64,000 nucleotides of DNA from Albidovulum sediminis (lineage in GTDB: Bacteria > Pseudomonadota > Alphaproteobacteria > Rhodobacterales > Rhodobacteraceae). Below the pieces are notes generated by a model, which did not search any database, was not told the origin of the DNA, and worked only from the letters and a program-made list of their open reading frames with translations. The position numbers and the translations under genes are program-made. The stretch spans positions 1,352,245 to 1,416,244 of the forward strand of contig NZ_JAOCQF010000001.1 in the NCBI RefSeq assembly GCF_025380365.1, given 5' to 3'. Below are positions 41,234 through 46,448 of this stretch, piece after piece; positions within the stretch are counted from its first letter, which is position 1; each line of letters begins with the position of its first letter.

Positions 41234-42052
41234 TCAGACGAGGATCGCGGCGATGCCGGCGGTCATCGCCCCCATCACCACCGCCATCGCGGGAAGGCCG
41301 CGATGCCGGCGCGGAAGCCAGAAGAAAAGGCCAGAGGCCAGCATCATCAACCCCAGCGGCGGGGCGACCTTCCAGGTGTCCCAGGTGGCGCCCTTGCCGG
41401 CAAGGCGCAGAACCGGCCCCATGTGGCCGATCATCCGGGCCATCGCCGACATCGTGCGGCTGACCGCGGGCCGCGACACCGGACGACGCGCCGCGATCTC
41501 GGCCAGTGCCCTGCCAATCGCGGCGGTCTCGTTTGCCCACTGGGCGCGGAACAGGATGCGGCAGTCGAAGTCGATCACATAGGCGCTGTTCGGGCGCCCG
41601 CCGAGGGCGCGGTGCAGCGTGCCGTCGATATCGTCCGCGGCCACCTCGAACGGAATGCGGTGGCGCGCCTTGAGGTCGCGCGCGTTGGCAAGCTTGGCGG
41701 CGGCGGCGCGGGGCTGGGGAACGCGTGCGCCGGGGTGCGCCTCGCGCACGTTGACAAGCACGAAGCGGATCGCGTGGCCATAGGTGGCATGCAGCCGCAC
41801 CAGCCCTTCGGCGGCACTTTCGGTGACCGGGCAGGTCAGCGACCCGAAGACGATGAGGATCGGGCGGCGGTCGGAGGCTTCGGGCCAGCGCAGGGTGGAG
41901 CCGTCGACAAGCTGCAGATCGGGCAGCGAGACATGGTCGCCCGGCCCGAGGTCGGACTTGCGCACGAACATGTCGTTCAGGATGTCTGGATAGATGCGGG
42001 GGTGATCGTAGCGGTAGAAATCTGCCGCTTGCGGTTCGGTGGACCGGGACAT
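41234..42052 (-). CDS. Deiodinase-like redoxin with C-terminal membrane anchor
   Basis: 272 aa. The thioredoxin-fold region contains LIVFGSLTCPVTESA: the GSxTCP pattern of bacterial relatives of iodothyronine deiodinases, with Cys74 where animal enzymes have selenocysteine. It continues with FVLVNVREAHPG (another deiodinase-like segment) and YVIDFDCRILFRAQWAN. Two hydrophobic segments at about residues 225-272 suggest membrane attachment. The enzymatic role of bacterial members is largely unknown; thiol peroxidase or reductive dehalogenation are possibilities. Last gene of the minus-strand unit headed by operator O1 at 42.9 kb. Confidence 0.75.
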   Translation of the reverse strand: MSRSTEPQAADFYRYDHPRIYPDILNDMFVRKSDLGPGDHVSLPDLQLVDGSTLRWPEASDRRPILIVFGSLTCPVTESAAEGLVRLHATYGHAIRFVLVNVREAHPGARVPQPRAAAAKLANARDLKARHRIPFEVAADDIDGTLHRALGGRPNSAYVIDFDCRILFRAQWANETAAIGRALAEIAARRPVSRPAVSRTMSAMARMIGHMGPVLRLAGKGATWDTWKVAPPLGLMMLASGLFFWLPRRHRGLPAMAVVMGAMTAGIAAILV

Positions 42053-42104
42053 GACGGGGCTCCGTGAAAGGGGGGGCGCGCGACGGGCGCGCCCCCGCAG
42101 GGGA

Positions 42105-42332
42105 TCAGGCCTTGGCGCCGGCCTTGGCGAGCGCGCGCAGGTCGTCGGCGGTGACGGGCGTGCCGCCCACGCCCCAGGCGCCCGGCTGGACATCCTGGAT
42201 GGTGACCCAGGTGACCTGGCGCAGGCCTTCGCCTTCCACCGACACCACGGCGTCGGTGACCTTGCGGATGATTTCCTGCTTCTGTTCGAGGCTCAGGTAT
42301 TCACCGACCCCGGTGATCTGGACGAGAGGCAT
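42105..42332 (-). CDS. 4-oxalocrotonate tautomerase family protein
   Basis: 75 aa. After Met removal Pro becomes residue 1 (MPLVQITGVGEYLSLEQKQEIIRKVTDAVV), the catalytic N-terminal proline of the tautomerase superfamily. The rest (VTWVTIQDVQPGAWGVGG) fits the beta-alpha-beta fold. Preceded by GGAGAACGAC. It lies 28 bases downstream of an AhpD-like gene and 52 bases upstream of the deiodinase-like gene. Confidence 0.87.
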   Translation of the reverse strand: MPLVQITGVGEYLSLEQKQEIIRKVTDAVVSVEGEGLRQVTWVTIQDVQPGAWGVGGTPVTADDLRALAKAGAKA

Positions 42333-42360
42333 TGTCGTTCTCCTTTTCTGGTTTGGGATT

Positions 42361-42912
42361 TCAGGCGGCGGCAGACCATTCGACGGCCTTGAAGGCGGCG
42401 TCGAGCGGGGTTCCGGCGATGTGGGTGGTGTAGTTCGAGATGGTCTTGAGGCCGACGCCCAGGACCACTTCAAGGGCCTGCTGCGGGCCGTAGCCCGCGG
42501 CCTCGAAGGCGGCCAGATCCTCGGCCTCGGGCCAGCCGCGGGTGCGCGTCACGGCGGCGGCGAAAAGCCGGAGCGCCTGCAGCTTGCTGTCCGCGATGGC
42601 GGTGTCGTTGCGCAGCGCGTCGGTGACCGAAGTGGCGACCTTCTGCATCCCGGCCAGCGCGGTGTGCACCGACATGCAGTAGGCGCAGCCGTTTTCGCGG
42701 CTGGCGGCCAGAAGGACGATCTGCCGCTCGGTCGCGCTCAGCGACGATCCGTCGAAGATGCGCGCAAGCGTCATGTAGCCTTCCAGAAGTGCCGGCGCGG
42801 TGGACATGACGGCCAGCAGGTTCGGCACGAAGCCAAAGCCCTTCTGTGCGCCGGACAGGATCGGCCGGGCCGATTCCGGTGCGGATTCAATGGTATTGAC
42901 GGGGAAGTTCAC
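42361..42912 (-). CDS. AhpD-like carboxymuconolactone-decarboxylase family protein
   Basis: 183 aa. The CxxC-x3-H peroxidase motif is Cys76-Ala-Tyr-Cys79...His83 in NGCAYCMSVHTAL, in the all-helical AhpD fold; ATERQIVLLAASRENG precedes it. Such proteins reduce peroxides or act as disulfide reductants. The start codon is 21 bases from a 16-bp palindrome (O1) shared with the local TetR gene. Heads a unit with the tautomerase and deiodinase-like genes. Confidence 0.87.
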   Translation of the reverse strand: MNFPVNTIESAPESARPILSGAQKGFGFVPNLLAVMSTAPALLEGYMTLARIFDGSSLSATERQIVLLAASRENGCAYCMSVHTALAGMQKVATSVTDALRNDTAIADSKLQALRLFAAAVTRTRGWPEAEDLAAFEAAGYGPQQALEVVLGVGLKTISNYTTHIAGTPLDAAFKAVEWSAAA

Positions 42913-42933
42913 GTTGGTCTCCTTATGATGATC

Positions 42934-42949
42934 TGGAACAATCGTTCCA
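42934..42949. promoter_or_regulatory. Operator O1: TGGAACAATCGTTCCA
   Basis: Perfect 16-bp palindrome (6-bp arms, 4-bp spacer) 21 bases upstream of the AhpD-like gene. Closely matches O2 and O3 near the TetR gene, so it is probably bound by that regulator. Confidence 0.72.
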
Positions 42950-43007
42950 ATTTGGACAGAATCGGGTAGAGGGTCTTCGCCCGGGCAGGAAACCCGGGAT
43001 TCGGCGG

Positions 43008-43029
43008 CCCCGGGCGACGTCGCCCGGGG
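43008..43029. terminator. 22-bp perfect GC palindrome after the glutaredoxin gene
   Basis: CCCCGGGCGAC / GTCGCCCGGGG just beyond the glutaredoxin stop, with a second hairpin (CCCGGG-N7-CCCGGG) about 30 bases further. Without a T-run, so a terminator or RNA-stability element is only likely. Confidence 0.4.
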
Positions 43030-43034
43030 AGGTT

Positions 43035-43265
43035 TCAGTGCGCGTTCAGTCGGTGGCTCAGGTCATCGAAGCCGCCGATATGCTCGTCCCCGGCAAAGAT
43101 CTGCGGGATGGTGCGGGCATTCGGCACCCGGCGGCGCATTTCGGCCAGGACCTCGGGCTTGCTGACGTCACGTTCGACGAAGGACAGGTTGCGCGCGACC
43201 AGCAGTTGCTTGGCGGCGACGCAGTAGCTGCACCCCGGGCCGGTGAATATCTCGATCCGTTCCAT
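43035..43265 (-). CDS. grxC: Glutaredoxin (class I, dithiol)
   Basis: 76 aa, GSH-dependent disulfide reductase. Active site CSYC at residues 12-15 (TGPGCSYCVAAKQLL), TIPQIF cis-proline motif and GGFDDLSH glutathione-binding end are present. Ten bases downstream of the second AhpD-like gene and cotranscribed with it. Confidence 0.94.
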   Translation of the reverse strand: MERIEIFTGPGCSYCVAAKQLLVARNLSFVERDVSKPEVLAEMRRRVPNARTIPQIFAGDEHIGGFDDLSHRLNAH

Positions 43266-43275
43266 CCCCGCCCCT

Positions 43276-43845
43276 TCAGTGCGAGACGCTGAGCACGGGC
43301 GTCACGCCGTCGAACATGGATTCAAGCCCGACACCCAGCGCATCGCCGAACTTCGACACCGCGATATAGGTGGTGATGACAAAGGCGGCGTCGACGATCT
43401 GCGCATCGGACCAGTTCGCCTTCAACCGTTCCCACAGGTGCTTCGGCACGCGGTTCGCATCGACGCCGATCTGCACGGTGAAGTCCAGAAGCGCGCGTTC
43501 GGCTTCGGAGAAATGCGGGCTGGTGCGGTAGCGGTCGCCGTCCAGATCGGCGATCTTTTCCTCGCTGATGCCCAGCATGCTCGACACCCGCTCGTGCTGG
43601 ACGACGCAGTACTGGCAGCTGTTGGCCTGCGTCGCCTTCAGGATCAGCAGTTCCTTCGTCGCCCAGTCAAGCACGCCATCCTTGAGGATCGCCATGATCG
43701 TGTCGGTAAAGACCGTGCCGTATTCGGGCTGGTGGCCGAACACCTTGAAGATGTTCAGAAGCGCCTGGAACCGCGCCTCGGACCGGTCGTAGAAGGCCAA
43801 TGTCACGGCATCGGCCTGATCGCGTTCGACATAGCTGACAGTCAT
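43276..43845 (-). CDS. Carboxymuconolactone-decarboxylase family protein
   Basis: 189 aa. The CxxC-x3-H motif is Cys77-Gln-Tyr-Cys80...His84 (NSCQYCVVQHERV) in an AhpD-like helical fold, with a longer C-terminal region (SEAERALLDFTVQIG, DAQIVDAAFVITTYIAVSKF) than the other copy. Start at MTVSYVERD (43845) because operator O2 lies directly upstream at 43867. Followed by glutaredoxin, a natural reductant for its disulfide. Confidence 0.85.
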   Translation of the reverse strand: MTVSYVERDQADAVTLAFYDRSEARFQALLNIFKVFGHQPEYGTVFTDTIMAILKDGVLDWATKELLILKATQANSCQYCVVQHERVSSMLGISEEKIADLDGDRYRTSPHFSEAERALLDFTVQIGVDANRVPKHLWERLKANWSDAQIVDAAFVITTYIAVSKFGDALGVGLESMFDGVTPVLSVSH

Positions 43846-43866
43846 CGTCTTCTCCCATAAAAGTTC

Positions 43867-43882
43867 TGGAATGTTCGTTCCA
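43867..43882. promoter_or_regulatory. Operator O2 within a larger palindrome
   Basis: TGGAATGTTCGTTCCA matches the O1/O3 pattern. It sits inside a perfect 9-bp-arm inverted repeat GTTCTGGAA-N6-TTCCAGAAC (43863-43886), 21 bases upstream of the carboxymuconolactone-decarboxylase family gene. Confidence 0.72.
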
Positions 43883-43898
43883 GAACGGCCAAAAAAAA

Positions 43899-44480
43899 TC
43901 ACCCCAGCAGACGCATCGCCTGAACGACGATCTGCTCTTTCTGCGCTGCCGGGGCGTTCGCCCTGCTCATCACCCGAAGGCCGAGGAACAGCGCGTAGAG
44001 TGTCGTCGTCGTCGCCTCGGCGTCGAGGTCCGGCGCAATGTCGCCGGCCGCTTGCGCCTCCGCGATCCGCTGGCGGAAGAACGCACGCAGTTCGCCCAGG
44101 CTCGCGGTCACGGCGGCGGCGATCTCGGGATCATGGGGCGCAAGTTCCACCGCCGAATTCACGATCAGGCATCCGGCCGGGCTTTCCGGCGTCGTCACCT
44201 GTTCGGCGGCGGCGCGGAATGCGGCAAGGATCGCCTCCCTCGGGCCGCCCGCCGCGATCAGTCCGGCCAGGAAGCGCGCCCGATAGCGTTCGTCATAGCG
44301 GTCCAGCGCGGCAAGAAAGATGTCACGCTTGCCTTCGAAGCTTGCGTAGATGCTGCCGCGGTTCACGCCCGTGGCCTGCACCAGGTCGTTGATCGACGTG
44401 CCCTCATAGCCGCGCGACCAGAACACGCGCATGGCGCGGTCGATGAAGGCGTCGGTGTCGTGTTGCTTGGGGGCGGGCAT
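43899..44480 (-). CDS. TetR/AcrR-family transcriptional regulator
   Basis: 193 aa. N-terminal HTH: VFWSRGYEGTSINDLVQATGVNRGSIYASFEGKRDIFLAAL is the canonical TetR DNA-binding domain. The C-terminal ligand domain includes TPESPAGCLIVNSAVELAPHDPEIA, a form common in regulators of electrophile or quinone responses. Its own promoter region carries operator O3, and O2 lies just past its stop in front of the next gene, so autorepression is likely. Confidence 0.93.
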   Translation of the reverse strand: MPAPKQHDTDAFIDRAMRVFWSRGYEGTSINDLVQATGVNRGSIYASFEGKRDIFLAALDRYDERYRARFLAGLIAAGGPREAILAAFRAAAEQVTTPESPAGCLIVNSAVELAPHDPEIAAAVTASLGELRAFFRQRIAEAQAAGDIAPDLDAEATTTTLYALFLGLRVMSRANAPAAQKEQIVVQAMRLLG

Positions 44481-44514
44481 GGCGTTCTCCTGATGCAGGA
44501 ACGTTTATAGCATC

Positions 44515-44530
44515 TGGAACGGTCGTTCAA
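44515..44530. promoter_or_regulatory. Operator O3: TGGAACGGTCGTTCAA
   Basis: Near-palindrome 34 bases upstream of the TetR start codon, one mismatch from the O1 arms. Fits autoregulation. Confidence 0.65.
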
Positions 44531-44595
44531 GAAGATTCCGAAATGTCCGGTTTCGTCCCCGGCGCGGCGGCACGATCGCCGCGCCGGGGAACACC

Positions 44596-45435
44596 TCAGA
44601 GCGCCGCGATCTGCGCCACGGCCTCTTCGGTGGTCCACAAGGCGTTGGCGATGTAGCGGAAGTTGATGATGGCGGCGAGGTAGCCGTCACCCTCGGGCAG
44701 CTTGGCCGCGGCGGTCGCGTCGCTGACGACCGCAACCTCGAAGCCCATCTCCAGCAGTTCGCGCAAGTGCGCCTCGACGCAGAGGTTCGCGGACATGCCG
44801 GCCAGGATCACCTGATCGACGCCGTTCTTGCGCAGTTGCAGCGCCAGGTCGTTCTGCTCGGGGCCGTAGACCTTGTGGGGCGAGGCGACGATGGTCTTGC
44901 CGTCGTTGATGAACTCCCGGTATTCGGGCATGAAGTCGGCGCCCGAATTCTCGAACCCGTCAAGGTTGGTCGGCCCCTTGCGGTCGAACATCCCGATGGC
45001 GTGCATCAGTTTTTCCAGCGGGCCTTCGAATTTCCAGCCATGGTCGGTCGGGTAGTAGTAGTGGGGCGAAACCGCCACGACCAGGTCTTTTTCCTTCGCG
45101 GCGCGGAACAGCTTGCCGATGTTCTCGACCACGCCGTGTTCGGTCACGCTTTCGCCGACGACCTTCCAGGTCACGCCGTCCGGGCTGAGGAAGTCGATCT
45201 GCGGGTCCGTCACCACCACGGCGACTCGGCCCTTCTGCAGGACCATGTCCGACGGCGGCAGCGCCGGTTCGGCCGGCGGGGCGTAGGGATCGGCTTCCTG
45301 CGCGGCGGCAGGGGCAGCGATGGCGGCGGCGCCGGCCAGGGTTGTCGCGCCGACGCCCATCAGCGCCTGACGCCGGCTTACGCCGCAGGCATGCCCGTGG
45401 GCATGGTCGTGATCGTGATCATGAGAGTCGCACAT
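44596..45435 (-). CDS. Tat-exported isochorismatase-family cysteine hydrolase with His-rich N-terminus
   Basis: 279 aa. N-terminus starts MCDSHDHDHDHAHGHACG, a metal-binding-like His/Asp/Cys stretch, followed by a twin-arginine signal (VSRRQALMGVG) and a hydrophobic region ending AAAQEA. The mature part is an isochorismatase-like hydrolase: Asp in VVVTDPQIDF, Lys in SPHKVYGPEQ and nucleophile Cys in GMSANLCVEAH. It acts in the periplasm. Located just upstream of the TetR gene in the same direction; divergent from an AraC gene. Substrate unknown. Confidence 0.85.
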   Translation of the reverse strand: MCDSHDHDHDHAHGHACGVSRRQALMGVGATTLAGAAAIAAPAAAQEADPYAPPAEPALPPSDMVLQKGRVAVVVTDPQIDFLSPDGVTWKVVGESVTEHGVVENIGKLFRAAKEKDLVVAVSPHYYYPTDHGWKFEGPLEKLMHAIGMFDRKGPTNLDGFENSGADFMPEYREFINDGKTIVASPHKVYGPEQNDLALQLRKNGVDQVILAGMSANLCVEAHLRELLEMGFEVAVVSDATAAAKLPEGDGYLAAIINFRYIANALWTTEEAVAQIAAL

Positions 45436-45518: not shown

Positions 45519-46448
45519 ATGTTGCTGGATGAGGTCCTGTCGCGGATGACGGTCGAGGTCGAGCCCTTCTCGATCTGCGAGATGGCGCCGCGCGGATGGC
45601 TCGACATGCCGAAATCCCCCGCCGCCAGCCTGCATTACGTTCTCAGCGGTACCGGGGCGCTGCATCTGGGCCCCTCGCGGTCGCATCCCCTGAAGACCGG
45701 TGACCTGGTCCTGGTGCCGGCGGGGTCGAGCCATTCCATCGGGGCGGAAGATGGCCGATTCGTCTCGTTCGCCAGTTGCCAGCCGGCGCGGCTCGGCCTG
45801 TCGCACCACCGCGACGGCACGGCGGACGAAGGGCTGGGGCTGATGGTGCTCTGCGCCAGCATTTCGCTCGGGCTCAGCGGGGCGGGCACCGTCATCGACC
45901 TCCTGCGCGAACCGGTGATCGAGGCGGCGGGGGCCGAACACCTGATCCGCCTGATCCTCGATGAACTCGCGGCGCCCGGCCCGGGGTCGCGCGCGCAGAT
46001 CAAGGCGCTGCTGCTCTACCTCATCATCGCGTCCCTGCGCCGCAGCGTCCTCAGGCAGGATCCGGGCACGGGCTGGCTGGTCGCGCTGTCCGACCGCAAC
46101 CTGTGGCCGGCCCTGGCCGAGGTGATAGCGCGGCCGGGCGCCGACCACAGCGTTGAATCGCTGGCCGAGCGGGTGGGGATGAGCCGGGCGCGCTTCGCGG
46201 CCCGCTTCAAGGATACATTCGCCACCAGCCCGATGCATCTTGTGCGCGACCTGCGGCTTCAGCACGCGGCGCGCCTGCTGCTCGAGGGGCATCACGGCGT
46301 GGCGCGCGTGGCCGAGCTTGTCGGCTTTTCCAGCCGCAGCCATTTCACGCAGGCGTTCGAGGCGCGCTATGGCATCAGTCCCGGCCGCTACGGGCGCACG
46401 GGCGGGACCGAGGAGTCCCCGTCCGGCGACACCGCGGACGGGGAATAG
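45519..46448 (+). CDS. AraC-family transcriptional regulator with N-terminal cupin
   Basis: 309 aa. The N-terminal half is a cupin-type sensor (LHYVLSGTGALHLGPSRSHPLKTGDLVLVPAG), typical of AraC regulators with an AraC_binding_2/cupin_6 domain. C-terminal two HTHs: VESLAERVGMSRARFAARFKD and VARVAELVGFSSRSHFTQAFE, ending YGISPGRYGR. Divergent from the exported cysteine hydrolase, which it probably regulates. Confidence 0.92.
   Translation: MLLDEVLSRMTVEVEPFSICEMAPRGWLDMPKSPAASLHYVLSGTGALHLGPSRSHPLKTGDLVLVPAGSSHSIGAEDGRFVSFASCQPARLGLSHHRDGTADEGLGLMVLCASISLGLSGAGTVIDLLREPVIEAAGAEHLIRLILDELAAPGPGSRAQIKALLLYLIIASLRRSVLRQDPGTGWLVALSDRNLWPALAEVIARPGADHSVESLAERVGMSRARFAARFKDTFATSPMHLVRDLRLQHAARLLLEGHHGVARVAELVGFSSRSHFTQAFEARYGISPGRYGRTGGTEESPSGDTADGE

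Follow-up and report, generated by a model that had tools for sequence, protein, structure and literature searches.

What do three closely matching palindromes control among the thiol-linked enzyme genes of Albidovulum sediminis, and to what would the switch respond? The question arises in a 64-kb stretch of contig NZ_JAOCQF010000001.1 (64,000 nucleotides, hereafter the window), where a sequence-only reading had placed palindromes O1, O2 and O3 before three minus-strand units, one of them tetR itself, and had proposed a TetR regulon directed against a reactive or halogenated compound. Comparative evidence well supports O1–O3 as predicted operators of a repressor switch. We consider it likely that the cluster is a local, autoregulated TetR stress regulon, triggered through Cys104 of the repressor and inducing a glutaredoxin-coupled defence of the CMD/AhpD type. 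Comparison between genomes supports the predicted operators, the target promoters and the conserved core; we infer the binding of TetR, the sensing by Cys104, the role of glutaredoxin as reductant and the type of substrate. The features of the proposed regulon are as follows.

41234..42052, minus strand: deiodinase-like thioredoxin-fold protein (Pfam T4_deiodinase, 27.2 against a cut-off of 27)
42105..42332, minus strand: small tautomerase-superfamily protein of 75 aa, with Pro after Met (Pfam Tautomerase)
42361..42912, minus strand: AhpD-like protein of 183 aa with CAYC (Pfam CMD; NCBIfam TIGR00778 above cut-off)
42934..42949, no strand: predicted operator O1, before ahpD-tautomerase-deiodinase-like (matrix score 26.0, the best in the window)
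43035..43265, minus strand: grx, dithiol glutaredoxin (CSYC) of 76 aa (Pfam Glutaredoxin)
43276..43845, minus strand: cmd, AhpD-type CMD-family protein of 189 aa (Pfam CMD; E65, C77, C80, H84)
43867..43882, no strand: predicted operator O2, before cmd-grx (matrix score 22.7)
43899..44480, minus strand: tetR, CifR/NemR-like repressor of 193 aa (Pfam TetR_N and TetR_C_13; Cys104)
44515..44530, no strand: predicted operator O3, before tetR (matrix score 24.4)

Palindromes O1–O3 in the window, the genome and relatives

All three palindromes were found letter for letter where they had been reported (42934, 43867 and 44515), starting 37 bp upstream of the start codon of ahpD, 37 bp upstream of that of cmd and 50 bp upstream of that of tetR. 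With up to one mismatch the motif TGGAACNNNNGTTCCA matches the window three times, exactly at O1–O3; with up to two mismatches there are 6 matches against 1.35 expected, a number attained by one shuffle in 100. The loose palindrome alone is not special genome-wide: TGGAACNNNCGTTCCA with up to two mismatches has 148 matches in the 4.29-Mb genome, against 261 for the backward pattern. The case for operators is made by the close match, the promoter positions and the conservation, not by the loose palindrome itself. Five nucleotides after each palindrome stands a hexamer that could serve as a −10 element (TATAAA for tetR, TTTATG for cmd, TCATAA for ahpD).

Since the reference motif used for the relatives (TTGAACGATCGTTCAA) was picked by eye and the genome pattern was devised in knowledge of the window sites, a matrix built from relatives only offers a fairer test. 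It comprises 20 sites, window sites excluded, one of which comes from a locus with tetR and an AhpD-like gene but without cmd (L036). On the window this matrix ranks O1, O3 and O2 as the top three positions, with the fourth at 16.3, and the best of 20 shuffles, which preserve base composition only, reaches 16.2. The fourth position (240-255, TGGAACGGGCGGTCAA) is a weaker operator-like site scoring about as high as the best shuffle. Across the genome, 15 places match with up to one mismatch; three are O1–O3, and the other 12 score 5.3-17.2 against 22.7-26.0, the highest of them lying inside coding sequence by our reading (L119). A pattern fitted to the sites finds five places in the whole genome, three of them O1–O3, against a single match for its backward control. 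One of the remaining two lies, by the same reading, in coding sequence, and the other (L120, score 14.5) resembles a site for another regulator. Because these other places score clearly below O1–O3, the predicted regulon is probably local and consists of tetR, cmd-grx and ahpD-tautomerase-deiodinase-like; within this genome the operator appears confined to the cluster, where the palindrome stands at the putative promoters of the regulator and of its targets. In L119, the stretch ahead of a CbiM-like gene (2330-2600) looks by eye like a cobalamin riboswitch.

The same arrangement recurs in ten core loci, defined by tetR beside cmd (the window, L102-L106, L110-L112 and L010), which range from the same genus to another class. 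All ten, our own included, carry sites both before tetR and before cmd that agree with TTGAACGATCGTTCAA at 12-16 of 16 positions, each within 160 bp upstream and each at a shuffle p <=0.013. Start positions in relatives were taken from alignment ends, and the gene finder used on them, which is crude and mis-called some strands, served as a guide. In a set of 97 TetR loci, which contains the window and the other core loci, upstream sites with at least 13 matches occur at 15 loci; the control stretch shows such a site at none of them. Upstream of cmd in L112 (5817) there are two operator-like palindromes, about 126 bp and a few tens of bases away. The sites in the ten core loci, the ranking by the matrix and the lower scores elsewhere in the genome together support the local three-unit regulon that had been read from the window.

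Another explanation can be offered for O2, which could fold into a 9-bp stem followed by TTTTAT and is listed by a terminator scan (43886-43863, minus strand): it could be the terminator of tetR and not an operator. Yet a single matrix fits all three palindromes, O2 included, and nine other core loci have matching sites upstream of cmd, where no extended stem with a T run was seen by eye. We regard this explanation as very improbable, and on the matrix fit and the matching sites before cmd we reject a plain terminator.

The repressor and its predicted target enzymes

By sequence, the closest solved relative of the TetR protein is CifR of Pseudomonas aeruginosa, with NemR tenth in the search; its predicted model (predicted local distance difference test, pLDDT, 88.6) likewise has CifR as the best fold match and NemR as the next named protein. 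No epoxide hydrolase family was found in a scan of 13 window proteins at and near the locus, a point of difference from CifR, whose target genes include such an enzyme. Cys104 is invariant in 53 aligned rows, as are E112, L113, P115, H116 and D117. That alignment omitted 28 of 80 TetR loci; a later check took in 96 loci besides the window, and 95 of these keep the cysteine. The protein combines a fold nearest to CifR and NemR with a conserved cysteine, as NemR/CifR-type repressors do. Cys104 aligns with residue 109 of the CifR chain, taken as Cys107 when a two-residue tag is allowed for, and PDB titles indicate that this CifR cysteine was mutated deliberately; because of this correspondence, sensing through the cysteine appears likely.

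CMD is the most conserved part of the cluster: in the nine other core loci its identity is 69-81%, compared with 38-56% for TetR in the same loci and 47-67% for glutaredoxin in seven. It holds the AhpD-type set of Glu, Cys-x-x-Cys and His: all ten core loci have E65, C77 and C80, and nine of the ten have H84, with CQYC invariant, a spacing that fits the AhpD active site. In eight of the ten core loci grx adjoins cmd, and all eight glutaredoxins have CxxC. The AhpD-like protein encoded downstream of O1 passes the cut-off of the NCBIfam model TIGR00778 and falls below that of TIGR01926. The deiodinase-like protein has a hydrophobic C-terminus and a Cys where the deiodinase active site lies; its gene is so rare (2 of 198 family genomes, our own included) that it says little about the core. 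The tautomerase-like protein of L102 (7945-8160), aligned from its first residue, starts with Met-Cys, not Met-Pro, and may have lost the catalytic N-terminal Pro; it matches no Pfam family at E 0.001.

In the mechanism that we propose, TetR would silence tetR, cmd-grx and ahpD-tautomerase-deiodinase-like by binding a 6-4-6 palindrome (consensus TTGAACGATCGTTCAA / TGGAACGATCGTTCCA) at each of the three promoters. Modification of Cys104 by a thiol-reactive oxidant or electrophile would make TetR leave the DNA. The induced CMD would then use Cys77/Cys80 to reduce the agent, or the oxidised thiols left by it, with the glutaredoxin from the neighbouring gene passing electrons from glutathione to CMD; the AhpD-like, tautomerase and deiodinase-like proteins may broaden the range. 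In the earlier proposal of an inducible response to a reactive or halogenated compound, the thiol-reactive part is plausible and is strengthened by the CifR/NemR-like repressor, the near-universal Cys104, the dithiol glutaredoxin and the AhpD-type residues; a halogenated target is possible.

Described systems and the weighing of the proposed mechanism

The cluster would work like the NemR, AltR/allicin and RclR/RclX responses, but we assign it to none of them. NemR of E. coli is an autoregulated repressor with a key cysteine (PMC13178969), and its structure (4yze) is a close fold match, at 21-22% identity over the aligned fold; its regulon, which answers electrophiles and bleach, has nemA, whereas the genes here encode CMD, glutaredoxin, AhpD-like and tautomerase proteins. 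The AltR cluster likewise combines a TetR protein that has a key cysteine with several inverted repeats in one cluster, and AltR needs Cys100 to answer thiosulfinates (PMC13178969). Also comparable are the PfAR-1 clusters, in which ahpD, 4-ot, tetR and thiol oxidoreductase genes lie together; overexpressed ahpD or dsbA makes cells resistant to allicin, and tetR, ahpD and 4-ot are present on the clones that confer resistance (PMC7119367). Alt-like clusters occur in diverse bacteria (PMC12306174). We reject membership in an alt cluster on two grounds, the lack of an AltR box and the lack of the usual partners: CAATCTAC-N6-GTAGATTG has no match with up to three mismatches in the window, and no old yellow enzyme (OYE), DsbA-like, Kef or OsmC family was found among the 13 proteins scanned.

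In P. aeruginosa the AhpD-like protein RclX, which stands near the AraC-type regulator RclR, protects against the thiol-reactive oxidants HOCl and HOSCN (PMC7950407). There the AraC protein controls RclX, whereas here predicted TetR sites stand at both AhpD-type genes and an AraC protein pairs with a neighbouring hydrolase. A CMD gene has been reported to rise 35-fold with sodium hypochlorite (NaOCl; PMC2830190). On the enzyme side, AhpD of Mycobacterium tuberculosis and the debrominase Bmp8 are CMD-fold relatives. Similarity to all solved members is low (Bmp8 matches CMD at E 0.0004, after eight other solved chains), and the glutaredoxin gene adjoining cmd in most core loci sets the cluster apart from both. 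The gene set is described in no title or abstract found in the open-licence PMC literature, and the operator strings were found in no open-licence PMC paper.

Several observations weigh against the proposed mechanism. A locus of the same genus (L092) has Asn at the Cys104 position together with an operator-like site 136 bp upstream of its TetR gene (2028). The cysteine is also present in TetR relatives beside quite different genes and, being common to them, does not fix the inducer. AltR is reported to be unresponsive to N-ethylmaleimide (NEM), diamide and H2O2 (PMC13178969), which means that sensors of this type may have a narrow range; the NaOCl study reports no induced glutaredoxin gene (PMC2830190). 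Two of the ten core loci (L010 and L111) have no glutaredoxin match, so the glutaredoxin is not indispensable; in favour of the mechanism, both carry glutathione S-transferase genes no more than 1 kb from the core, a count limited to these two cores. The second AhpD-like protein has Gln at the position of the catalytic Glu of AhpD. The O1 unit is the weakest-supported of the predicted targets, its single counterpart before ahpD being a weaker site in L102 (11 of 16 matches, p 0.05). A scan for the sigma-70 consensus reported no promoter in the region, and the overlap of operator and promoter is for that reason judged by eye.

Some of these points also bear on whether the TetR protein instead senses a non-reactive ligand, such as a metabolite or an aromatic compound, by binding it in a pocket, with catabolic enzymes as its targets and the cysteine in a structural role. 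The CMD and tautomerase families do include catabolic enzymes, several TetR relatives with similar upstream sites stand, by eye, beside short-chain dehydrogenases and transporters, and L092 combines its operator-like site with the lack of the cysteine. However, no dioxygenase, CoA ligase or transporter family was found among eight proteins scanned, the AhpD-type residues and the dithiol glutaredoxin indicate redox chemistry, and the cysteine occupies the very CifR position that was mutated on purpose. We judge ligand sensing of this kind unlikely, and retain the Cys104-triggered stress regulon as the preferred explanation.

Neighbouring genes and distribution of the core

The surroundings of the three units contain four further features.

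42980..43029, minus strand: two GC-rich hairpins between grx and ahpD (fold z −2.58; without a T run)
44556..44590, minus strand: strong GC-rich hairpin after the hydrolase gene and before tetR (fold z −4.05; without a T run)
44596..45435, minus strand: exported isochorismatase-like cysteine hydrolase, a neighbour only (Pfam Isochorismatase)
45519..46448, plus strand: AraC-family regulator, which likely regulates the hydrolase (Cupin_6 and HTH_18)

Read 5' to 3' on the minus strand, the genes run isochorismatase-like hydrolase, TetR, CMD, glutaredoxin, AhpD-like, tautomerase and deiodinase-like. Each scores above its Pfam cut-off, the deiodinase-like one barely, which confirms the identities, the order and the single strand given in the sequence-only reading. 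GC-rich hairpins 3' of grx and of the hydrolase gene fit separate transcription units, and the pair at 42980..43029 is a possible end of the cmd-grx unit.

The hydrolase had been described as leading the cluster, which is true of its position and not of its regulation. Upstream of it there is no operator-like site (best 8 of 16 matches, shuffle p 0.95), and it shares its 5' region with the araC gene on the opposite strand. A family search found the hydrolase at E 1e-40 in 18 of 248 genomes, our own included. Fifteen of the other 17 were examined (14 fetched plus L102, two being left out); a divergent adjacent araC homologue is present in six of the 15 loci, the contig end of L170 being too close to judge, and the TetR core in one, L102, where the orientation of hydrolase and araC towards tetR is reversed. 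Because no operator precedes the hydrolase and the divergent araC pair occurs without tetR in relatives, membership in the TetR regulon is rejected, and the hydrolase probably belongs to a separate unit under AraC control.

It is doubtful, on the same evidence, that the whole block with hydrolase and AraC included forms one two-regulator system against reactive chlorine or halogen species, as the missing operator and the single core among 15 other hydrolase loci speak against it. The best NCBIfam model of the AraC protein is RclR, which in P. aeruginosa controls an AhpD-like protein (PMC7950407), but the match reaches 80.4 bits against a cut-off of 400 and falls short of the curated RclR family. 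More favourable to a single system are L102, which holds hydrolase, araC, tetR, cmd, grx, ahpD and tautomerase-like genes together, and three loci (L176, L179 and the Phaeobacter plasmid L113) where relatives of the hydrolase and of the AhpD-like protein lie on one strand, 0.6-1.3 kb apart. Because of the latter three, a functional tie between the hydrolase/AraC and TetR modules is possible. On L113, the Phaeobacter inhibens plasmid pP30_b, typed as conjugative, genes for AraC, NTF2-like, cysteine hydrolase, YHS-domain and AhpD-like CMD proteins are consecutive.

Conservation of the block across Rhodobacterales, a further point raised with the first reading, did not hold: 4 of 295 genomes of the family have CMD at E 1e-40, and of the loci inspected L102 alone has nearly the whole block. 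Of 22 genomes of the genus, six have TetR at E 1e-20, and three of the 22 also have CMD within about 1.5 kb (our own included). CMD occurs in 3 of 385 genomes of the class and 2 of 398 of the phylum, our own being included here and in the family count; a named collection was also searched. CMD of a gammaproteobacterial metagenome-assembled genome is 80% identical to ours, more than the 76-78% of two genomes from our own genus, which suggests horizontal transfer. No plasmid-borne CMD relative appears at E 1e-30, and at E 1e-5 all have <60% identity; the annotation, known to be incomplete, of five plasmid neighbourhoods selected from TetR and AhpD-like matches (L113-L117) contains no tetR-cmd-grx core. 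In L103, L104 and L106, from three genera, the core lies by eye in what seems to be the same chromosomal neighbourhood, after a RatA-like gene.

A bolder proposal, which we put forward as improbable, is that the core represents a mobile, undescribed glutathione-linked AhpD system with a repressor and operator type of its own, in which glutaredoxin and not dihydrolipoamide would drive CMD, possibly as a reductive dehalogenase or a reductase of a specific electrophile. The scattered distribution of the core suggests that the trait moves between bacteria. With one repressor, a defined predicted operator and few target genes, the cluster is compact enough to be studied as a whole. If CMD is reduced by the glutaredoxin, a physiological electron donor would be identified for one branch of the CMD/AhpD superfamily, which is large and for the most part uncharacterised.

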